DNA from: Terriglobia bacterium
GTDB lineage: Bacteria > Acidobacteriota > Terriglobia > Terriglobales > SCQP01
Assembly: GCA_021323595.1 (NCBI GenBank)
Contig: JAJPKR010000018.1
Coordinates: 1-33,004 of the forward strand
Direction of reading: 5' to 3'
Length of the DNA: 33,004 nt
The notes below the pieces were generated by a model. That model made no database searches and was not told the origin of the DNA. It saw only the letters and a program-made list of their open reading frames with translations. The position numbers and the translations under genes were made by a program. Positions 1,381-23,077 of the stretch are shown here, piece by piece (the first letter of the stretch is position 1; each line of letters begins with the position of its first letter).

Positions 1381-1998
1381 TTACAGCGCCCGGCGCCCTT
1401 CCAATGCCTTGAGCATGGTGACTTCGTCGGCATAATCGATTTCGCTGCCGACGGGAATGCCCATGGCGATGCGGCTGGCGCGCACCCCGAGCGGTTTGAG
1501 CAGTCGCGCCAGATATACCGCCGTCGCCTCGCCTTCGGCGTCGGGATCGGTTGCCAGGATGATTTCCTCCACTACCGGCCGCCCATCGCTCCGCGTGGCC
1601 CGCAGCCGCTCGATCAGCGACTTGATGCGAATCTGATCCGGCCCGATTCCTGCGAGAGGCGACAGCGAGCCGTGCAGCACGTGGTAGAGGCCGTTGAATT
1701 GGCGCGTCTTCTCCACCGCCAAAATGTCATTCGGCTGCTCCACGACGCAAATCAACGTTGGGTTGCGGTGCGGGCTGGCGCAAAATTGGCACGGGTCGAC
1801 GTCGGTGATGTTATTGCACACGCCGCACAGCCGCAGCGAATCCTTAACTCCGAGCACGGCCTCCGCCAGGTTTTGCGCCCGTTCCCGGTCACCGCGCATC
1901 AGGTGAAAGGCAATCCTCTGCGCCGACTTTTGCCCGATCCCCGGCAGCCGCTTCAGTTCGTCGATCAAGCGCTCCAGAGGCGCCGCCAGATCGCTCAT
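1381..1998 (-). CDS. recR: Recombination mediator RecR
   Basis: This 205-residue protein has the full RecR layout: a helix-hairpin-helix (about 17-28, [11 protein letters not shown]), a C4 zinc finger (Cys58, Cys61, Cys70, Cys73), and a Toprim domain with the acidic motif DPDAEGE at 151-157. RecR works with RecF and RecO to load RecA on single-stranded gaps. The start lies 3 bases after the ybaB stop, so it is the last gene of a dnaX-ybaB-recR operon, an arrangement conserved in very many bacteria. Length and motifs are complete and nothing looks damaged. Confidence 0.97.
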
Positions 1999-2001
1999 GG
2001 A

Positions 2002-2313
2002 TTAGAACAGCCCTCCCAGCGGGAGCCCGGTGATCTGGCCCAGTTCCCCGCGCAAACGCTCATCCACTTGCCGGCCGGCGTCATTCACGGCGGCTCGCAC
2101 GAGATCGGCGAGCATTTCGGGATCGTCGCGCGCCACACCGGCATCGAGCCGCACCTCGAGCACTTGCTTCTCCCCGTTCATGCGCACGGTCACCATGCCG
2201 CCGCCGGCCGTGCCCTCGACCACGATCGCAGCCATCTTCTGGCGCAGCGCGTCGTACTGCTGCCGCGCTTGGCCGAGCATCTCTTGCAGTTGCCCGAAGT
2301 TGAAGCCGCTCAT
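2002..2313 (-). CDS. ybaB: YbaB/EbfC family nucleoid-associated protein
   Basis: This 103-residue protein has the typical YbaB/EbfC pattern: an N-terminal helix rich in Gln and Met (FGQLQEMLGQARQQ), a central beta segment (VVEGTAGGGMVTVRMNG), and a C-terminal helix ending in a Gly/Leu-rich tail (GLPLGGLF). The family forms dimers that bind DNA; its exact role is unsettled, but it is nearly always found between dnaX and recR, as here. It starts 19 bases after the dnaX stop and ends 3 bases before recR, so the three genes are likely one transcript. Confidence 0.93.
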   Translation of the reverse strand: MSGFNFGQLQEMLGQARQQYDALRQKMAAIVVEGTAGGGMVTVRMNGEKQVLEVRLDAGVARDDPEMLADLVRAAVNDAGRQVDERLRGELGQITGLPLGGLF

Positions 2314-2332: not shown

Positions 2333-4039
2333 TCACTCGCTCAACTCGATCGTGCGCAGCACGTGTCCCGGCACGTGTTCGCGCAGCGCCCGCAGCGCCG
2401 GATGCCGCGCCGCTCGTTCCGCGGCCGGCGTCCCATCCGTTGCCGGGGCCGGCGCCGCGGGCCCGGGGACCTCTACAACGCGCACCTCGATTTCCGGTGC
2501 AAAGCCGAGAGTTACCCGGCAAACCTCGCGTAACTCTCTAAGGATCGAGTCCTGTTTCGCGAGAGGCGCCAGCGCCGCCGCCTCGCCCGCGAATCTCAGT
2601 TCCAGTCGCCGCTCCGCCCAAGTCCAGACTGCCGGTTGGAGCACACTCAGCAGCGAGGTTCGCTTCAACTCCTCAAGGCGCGCCAAGACTTTGGCTCTCG
2701 CCGGATCCCCGGCCGGGGCCGGCGGCTCCGTTGCCGCGGCGCGTTCCGGCGCGGCGGCGTTCTCCTCTCCCGGCGCGTCAGCTTCCGGCGCGAACCGTGC
2801 CGAGGGCGGCGTTTCCCTGCCCGCGCCGCCGCCCGCGCGCGAGCCACCGCCGCCCGCCGCCGCTGCTGCGCCGCTGCCGGTCGCGTCATGCGGGGTTTTT
2901 TTTTGCTCCGCGCCGAGGCTCGCCAAAACGTCCTCGATACTCGCCAAGCGCCGCGCTTGCACCAGCTTCACCAAGCCCAATTCCAAGTGCAGCCGCGGCT
3001 CCTGGGCAAAGCGGAGATCGGCGGCGGTGCGCAACAAAATCTGCAGAAAGCGCGTCAGGTCCTCCTCGCCGAAGCGCTCGGCCGCCGCCGCCGTCGCCTT
3101 CCGCTCGGTATCGCTCAACGCCAGCAGTTCGCTCTCCGCCCCCGCCACCCGGCACATCAGCATATTGCGGATCATGCCCACGGTTTGCTGGCAGATCTGC
3201 GCCGGGCTCGCCCCCGCCGCTAGAAATGCGTCGGCGCGCTCCAGGACTTCGCGGCTGTTGCCATCGGCCACGGCGGCCATCATCTCGCCCAGGGCTTGGG
3301 ACGAGACTCGTCCCAGCAGAGCCCGCACCATCTCCGCCCGCAGCGCGCCCGCGCCGTAGGCCAGCGCCTGATCGAGCAGCGACAACGCATCGCGCAGGGA
3401 ACCTTCGCCGGCGGCCGCGATCAGGCCCAGCGCCTCGTCTTCGGCCGCGATGCCTTCGGCCTGGCAAATCTGCCGCAGCCGTTCGACGATGCGGGCGTAA
3501 GAGACCGCGCGAAAGGCGAAATGCTGGCAGCGCGAGCGGATCGTGGCCGGCAGCGCTTCCGGCTCGGTCGTCGCCAGCACGAAGATCGCCCACTCGGGCG
3601 GTTCTTCCAGCGTCTTCAGCAACGCATTGAAGGCGTCGTCGGTGAGTTGGTGCGCCTCGTCGAGAATGTAGAACTTATAGCGGTCGCGCGCCGGCCGGTA
3701 CCGCACGCTTTCGCGCAAGGCGCGAATCTCGTCGATGCCGCGATTGGAAGCGGCGTCGATCTCGATCACGTCCACCGAGTTGCCCTCGCGAATCTCACGG
3801 CAGCTCTCGCATTCGCCGCAGGGTGTTGGCGTCGGCCCGGGTGCGCGCCGGCAATTCATCGCCTTGGCCAAAATGCGCGCCACCGTCGTCTTGCCGATGC
3901 CGCGATGGCCCGAGAAGATGAAGCCGTGGCCCACCCGGCCCGCCGCCAGGGCGTTCTCGAGCGTCCGCACCACCGCCTCTTGGCCGATCACCTCATCGAA
4001 GGTTTGCGGCCGATAGCGGCGCGCCAGCACCTTTTCCAT
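2333..4039 (-). CDS. dnaX: DNA polymerase III subunit tau/gamma (DnaX)
   Basis: This is the clamp-loader ATPase, 568 residues from the ATG at 4039. The start is set by the family N-terminus ([17 protein letters not shown]); a longer open frame to 4219 runs through the SRP RNA gene and is rejected. Visible parts are Walker [10 protein letters not shown] (44-52), zinc-finger Cys63/74/77/80, Walker B DEAH (127-130) and a sensor/Arg-finger region (TIRSRC). AAA+ and collar domains fill about the first 370 residues. A Gly/Ala/Pro-rich linker follows, then a tau tail for DnaB and polymerase contacts. At codons 379-382 the coding strand has nine consecutive A, and a -1 shift there meets a stop after three codons (see separate entry). 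The first gene of dnaX-ybaB-recR, it begins 24 bases after the SRP RNA. Confidence 0.96.
2886..2905 (-). promoter_or_regulatory. A9 slip site and -1 frame stop in dnaX (gamma form)
   Basis: On the coding (minus) strand, codons 379-382 read CAA AAA AAA ACC, a run of nine A at 2904-2896. Shifting one base back, or adding one A to the mRNA, gives AAC CCC GCA TGA, with the stop at 2888-2886. The product would be 384 residues, ending KKNPA, just after the AAA+ and collar domains: the expected size of a gamma subunit. In Thermus thermophilus dnaX a similar A9 run causes transcriptional slippage; in Escherichia coli an A-rich heptamer causes ribosomal -1 frameshifting. Which mechanism acts here cannot be told from sequence. 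A GGAG sits just upstream (GCGGAGC) and the downstream sequence is strongly GC-rich. Confidence 0.7.
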
Positions 4040-4063: not shown

Positions 4064-4173
4064 GATCAGACTTCGGGAACTTCGCTGCACAGTTCCATTG
4101 CCGGCTACCGTTGCTTCCTTCCGGACCTGGCGGGGTTCGCCGGCGGATCTTGCGCGAGACCCGAAGCCTGACC
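4064..4173 (-). ncRNA. ffs: Signal recognition particle RNA (small bacterial 4.5S type)
   Basis: The minus strand carries the diagnostic SRP RNA core CAGGTCCGGAAGGAAGCA (about 4109-4130), with the GGAA tetraloop and the asymmetric loop that bind Ffh. The ends pair as a 14-bp stem: GGTCAGGCTTCGGG (4173-4160) with CCCGAAGTCTGATC (4077-4064), allowing two G-U pairs. Inner GCCGGC/GCCGGC and ACC/GGT segments also pair. At about 110 nt with no Alu domain it is the short form common in Gram-negative-type bacteria. It lies 24 bases upstream of the dnaX start in the same direction and diverges from fabH. The exact 5' and 3' ends are inferred from the closing stem. Confidence 0.93.
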
Positions 4174-22628: not shown

Positions 22629-23077
22629 TAAGAGTGATGCTGAGCCGGCCAAAAGGGTTGGCTGAGAGCACACGCAGTCGGCGATTTTGGGAACTCGGCG
22701 GGCGCTGATAGATTCGCGCCGAGCCCCTCCCCCCTTCCGGGGCGGCGCAGCGTTGAGGCCGCTGTCGTAAGGGCCCCTCGCACCGACATCTGTCTCTTGC
22801 CGGCTTTGAAGCGAGTCCCCAATGGCAGGTTGTGCCGAAGGAGTCCGTCCAAGAGCTGCCGCGCGGAGAGCCTGACCGGGGGGTGGATCGCAGCGATGCC
22901 CCGCGGCGGACAGGCGGCACTCATTCCGGGGCCGAGGGATATATCTGGAGGCGCGGTCATCGGCGGCTACCCCGACGCACGCGTAAAAAAAAAGACGTGA
23001 ATTAAGGGGCGTGGTAGGGCACAGGCTGGGGTAACATGATTGGCCTATCGGCGTCAGGGATTCCCATGGAGGTGAAT

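Follow-up and report, generated by a model that had tools for sequence, protein, structure and literature searches.

Results

The dnaX locus and its A run

The window, that is, the whole 33,004-nucleotide stretch of DNA analyzed here, carries dnaX, the gene for the tau/gamma subunits of the clamp loader, on the minus strand at 2333..4039, with its ATG at 4039 and a zero frame encoding tau (568 aa). The N-terminal region of the product scored 428 bits against TIGR02397 (dnaX_nterm; cut-off 250) over residues 3-359, and matches to PF13177, PF22608 and PF12169 showed that the ATPase, lid and collar regions are present. Escherichia coli gamma (1jr3_A) also matched the product (E=1e-84), with gamma structures covering residues 3-359. 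The collar domain (gamma/tau domain III; PF12169, E=6.8e-23) spans residues 234-372, at 2924..3340 on the minus strand. The gene belongs to a dnaX-ybaB-recR cluster, also on the minus strand, in which ybaB/ebfC (2002..2313; TIGR00103) comes next and recR lies at 1381..1998 (TIGR00615), both above the model cut-offs, and a small bacterial SRP RNA (4068..4166, minus strand; RF00169, 69.4 bits) lies upstream of dnaX.

Seven residues beyond the end of the collar domain, nine consecutive A's form a candidate slip site at 2896..2904 of the minus strand, across codons 379-382 (CAA AAA AAA ACC) in the context GAG CAA AAA AAA ACC CCG CAT GAC. The run sits inside the zero-frame tau ORF, which is open to 2333, and dnaX relatives align across residues 1-566, indicating that this frame is open beyond the run. 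The tau-specific linker and C-terminal region, which gamma would lack, occupies 2336..2893 (minus strand) and is aligned in relatives to residue 566. In the -1 frame the sequence past the run reads AAA AAC CCC GCA TGA, and this TGA (2886..2888, minus strand; 7 nt past the run) would end a gamma subunit of 384 residues. Translation of a 10-A message would give exactly such a product, with QKKNPA at its C-terminus, 12 residues beyond the collar domain. The first stop of the +1 frame lies much further on, 228 nt past the run (2665..2667, minus strand). An initial sequence-only reading of this DNA had described the A9 run across codons 379-382, the close -1 stop at 2888-2886 and a short product ending just past the ATPase and collar domains; the coordinates and arithmetic were correct, and the ends of the PF12169 match (residue 372) and of the product (residue 384) confirmed where the truncation would fall.

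Frequency of A9 runs in the window and genome

By dinucleotide shuffling, 0.01 A9 runs are expected per window, and two were observed. The second, at 22985-22993, lies a short distance ahead of an ORF that begins at 23036, and as no convincing gene frame covers it, any significance for this run was dropped. Of the five A9/T9 runs found in the 3.55-Mb genome, only that of dnaX reads as A9 in the sense direction of an evident gene; two appear to read as T9 in the sense direction of long open frames, and the remaining two are without a convincing gene frame. Simple arithmetic from this genome count gives a chance of about 2 in 10,000 that, with five runs placed randomly over both strands, one would land in any particular sense segment of 300 nt, and the placement of the dnaX run in the genome is in this respect striking. 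The earlier description of the run as a lone long homopolymer is thus a slight overstatement, given a second A9 in the window and five A9/T9 in the genome, although this is the sole sense A9 of an evident gene.

Conservation within the family and sister family

Full N-terminal dnaX sequences were obtained from 11 of the 14 genomes of the family. An A9 or A10 just beyond the collar domain was present in five of these 11 genes, representing four of six genera: g1 (the window's own), g2 (two genes), g4 and g5. In all five, a -1 stop follows 3-7 nt past the run, while the +1 stop falls at +228 nt in the window's gene and at +2, +2, +23 and +14 nt in the others. The flanks of the run, compared in 10-nt blocks on either side, have a mean pairwise identity of 23-49%. 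Across four genera of the family, the run is therefore retained while the surrounding DNA drifts. At the run, G004 encodes VKKN and the four other members QKKN or QKKT.

Within the same family, dnaX of genera g3 and g6 carries no A run, and neither A9 nor T9 occurred in any of 59 dnaX loci from 57 different genomes of the sister family. Conservation of the A run and of the close -1 stop with variable flanks, which the initial reading had proposed as a check, was consequently seen in four of the six family genera and supports a function, with the qualification that the run is absent from g3, g6 and the sister family. This absence also indicates that the group as a whole does not require gamma made by slippage. 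One sister-family dnaX (G024:C9:377390-378659) is split into two segments that lie in different frames, with an internal TGA, which may reflect an assembly error or a real frameshift.

Survey of Acidobacteriota and analysis of off-frame stops

A survey of 109 Acidobacteriota dnaX genes, the 11 family genes included, identified 15 sense runs of at least nine A's in 14 genes from six families. All 15 lie at codons 360-404 and thus within codons 346-430, a segment that makes up 15% of the coding length, and no sense run of this size occurred in the remaining 155 kb of surveyed dnaX coding sequence. The runs are pure A, 9-11 long, and not A6G. Additionally, an A8 was seen at codon 423 of G474 (L190), a dnaX gene of 68% GC, with a -1 stop 2 nt on; this may be a shorter slip site and lies outside the counts given here.

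Distances from the run to the next stop in each off-frame were measured from the longest qualifying run within codons 301-500 of each gene. The comparison set consisted of positions elsewhere in these genes, from codon 330 onward, with distances capped at 90 and 20,000 draws. In 12 of the 14 genes, each off-frame meets a stop no more than 24 nt after the run, where 1.5 genes would be expected from the comparison positions (P<5e-5). The mean distance was 8.4 nt for the -1 stop (52.8 expected) and 17.4 nt for the +1 stop (52.6 expected, P<5e-5), and in neither case did any of the 20,000 draws reach the observed value. The enrichment of +1 stops also held when a near -1 stop was already given. 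When a single gene per clade was drawn, the median P was 0.001 for the -1 frame and 0.0045 for the +1 frame, with P=0.33 in the worst +1 draw. The two exceptions to close closure of both frames are the window's own gene and that of G505, and draws containing them are consequently the weakest in the one-per-clade analysis.

On a tree of the N-terminal region of 121 genes, the presence of the run requires seven changes, and the window's family and its sister family each fall on one side of a branch; this tree was a quick build with several doubtful long branches, in which gains and losses of the run are not distinguishable. Altogether, the recurrence of the run in five further families and the position of off-frame stops far nearer than chance strengthened the proposal that the run is unlikely to be neutral, and these sequence comparisons indicate that it is real and probably functional.

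Discussion

Comparison with known dnaX systems

In Thermus thermophilus, gamma is made by slippage on an A9 run in dnaX that is followed by stops in both off-frames (Larsen et al. 2000, as cited in PMC1088944 and PMC5009743). The dnaX gene in the window resembles it in having one open tau frame, a sense A9, an off-frame stop that truncates the product to gamma, and two Lys tRNAs in the genome. By the same accounts, the Thermus run lies seven-eighths along the gene, whereas the run described here lies two-thirds along, and Thermus closes both off-frames nearby, whereas the window's gene closes only the -1 frame early; most Acidobacteriota relatives with the run close both.

E. coli dnaX relies on -1 ribosomal frameshifting on A_AAA_AAG with the help of stimulators (PMC5009743). 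The window's gene is similar in that gamma would end beyond the collar, about two-thirds along, at a -1 stop, with tau as the zero-frame product (PMC5009743), and differs from E. coli in its pure A9 and in that no stem-loop and no suitably placed Shine-Dalgarno (SD) sequence were found. A third type, the two-ORF dnaX genes with 7-10 A's grouped in a GeneTack cluster, for which polymerase slippage has been proposed, shares the poly-A slip site within dnaX; slippage is required for tau in those genes (PMC3711429), whereas tau is the templated product of the dnaX gene analyzed here.

Proposed mechanism and alternative explanations

We consider it likely that the A9 run serves as a programmed slip site at which polymerase slippage gives both tau and gamma from one dnaX gene. 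RNA polymerase would slip on the A9 tract (rA:dT) and produce dnaX messages of variable A number. Full-length tau (568-569 aa) would come from those with 9 or 12 A's; those with 10 (or 7) would reach the TGA seven bases on and yield gamma (384 or 383 aa), which would retain the ATPase and collar domains but lack the linker and the tau C-terminal region. Some ribosomal -1 slipping on A_AAA_AAA may contribute to the same gamma product. The sequence comparisons lead us to propose slippage, mainly at transcription, as the origin of a gamma subunit that would be both produced and used.

The principal alternative is programmed ribosomal frameshifting of the E. coli type, in which ribosomes slip by -1 on A_AAA_AAA and stop at 2888-2886, so that gamma comes from an accurate message; we regard this as rather unlikely as the main source of gamma. 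The heptamer is in phase within CAA AAA AAA ACC, its -1 stop is at +7 nt, and the -1 frame is the only one closed early in the window's gene, all of which suits such a mechanism. The stimulators that it would call for were sought and rejected: the stability of downstream structure in the window was within that of shuffled sequences (z +0.07 to +1.35), and the other 13 run-bearing genes showed no consistent stem-loop, with strong values only in G492 and G408. Likewise, no internal SD stood at the spacing that stimulates -1 shifts; the window's dnaX offered only a GGAG immediately ahead of the run, beginning 5 nt upstream of it, and an AGGA much further off, at 30 nt; upstream SD-like elements were absent in most run-bearing relatives, and none was consistently placed amongst these genes. 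The runs are pure A of 9-11 rather than A6G, although A_AAA_AAG is the shiftier sequence in E. coli (PMC5009743). The stops provide a further distinction. As transcriptional slippage puts messages into either off-frame, closure of the two would be expected, whereas ribosomal -1 slipping needs only a -1 stop; the closure of the +1 frame in most relatives is more than a purely -1 event requires. The open +1 frame (228 nt), unlike that of Thermus, means that the window's gene by itself does not separate the two mechanisms. The genome carries two separate tRNA-Lys (UUU and CUU), and two Lys tRNAs have been tied to polymerase slippage in Thermus (Atkins review, PMC5009743). The closure of both frames, the lack of a consistent SD or stem-loop and the two Lys tRNAs together favor a mechanism of the Thermus type over that of E. 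coli, and we infer that transcriptional slippage is the most likely process, with ribosomal slipping as its main rival or partner.

Explanations without a programmed slip site were also weighed. The run could have arisen by chance, with no programmed use, in a Lys-coding linker where errors at a low level do no harm. The linker is indeed poorly conserved, the run is missing from g3, g6 and the sister family, and the two T9 runs inside other long open frames indicate that such runs are not wholly kept out of genes; a neutral run, however, would not predict the concentration at one position, the retention over four genera with drifting flanks or the stops in both off-frames, and we give this explanation very little chance. 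Selection could instead act on the protein, through a QKK or KK motif at the start of the linker, with the A's following from codon choice. The QKKN or QKKT of four of the five family members would agree with this, but the sequence is VKKN in G004 and EKKT, KKK or LKKN in other families, and the motif is missing from g3 and g6. Of the ten other Lys codons in the window's dnaX, just two are AAA, and a protein motif would leave the close off-frame stops unexplained. No relatives with KK coded by AAG and lacking off-frame stops were seen. Given the varied residues and the off-frame stops, the protein-motif explanation was rejected as hardly credible.

Returning to polymerase slippage, the open +1 frame has a further consequence, as translation of messages carrying 8 or 11 A's would give a product of 457-458 residues whose tail is different and rich in Arg. 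That this third DnaX form is made in quantity and used seems highly doubtful; if it were, a single slip site would supply the clamp loader with three isoforms of DnaX.

Significance

The type of phenomenon is already known from Thermus, and in the literature searched it appears to be new for Acidobacteriota, which, as scattered lineages rather than as a whole phylum, join the bacteria that likely make gamma by slippage. No report of a slip site in dnaX of Acidobacteriota was found in that literature, which is weak evidence of absence as most subscription papers fell outside the search; the survey of PMC3711429 includes three Acidobacteria, and its available part reports no such dnaX site. Baranov et al. 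(PMC1088944) note that comparing sequences is a difficult way to assess slippage that truncates a protein, and a search for stops that close both off-frames behind a long A run offers a comparative test for it. In addition, given the patchy presence of the run in one family, relatives that have the site can be paired with relatives that lack it, which would be useful for asking what role gamma plays.

A runs in dnaX of other phyla

Amongst the named dnaX loci of other phyla, ten genes from Clostridia MAGs (L077, L083, L086, L092, L093, L094, L098, L100, L102 and L112) have an A9 at about codons 359-364. In these genes the zero frame stops right past the A9, and the -1 frame runs on for about 115 residues, giving tails that share 47-82% identity with the one encoded in frame by L105, a relative with an A10. 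Tau itself would need slippage in these ten genes, which belong to the two-ORF type described by GeneTack (PMC3711429) and are a parallel rather than a new kind. This parallel suggests that an A run at such a place in dnaX can be relied on for expression.

Runs of A9 or A10 were also observed in dnaX of L053, L059, L064, L068, L070, L074, L076, L078, L085, L088, L089 and L096, which are labeled Planctomycetota, Phycisphaerae, Phycisphaerales or Sedimentisphaerales. These runs lie at codons 373-421, counted from the start of the match, and most of the genes have a GC content of 58-73%.
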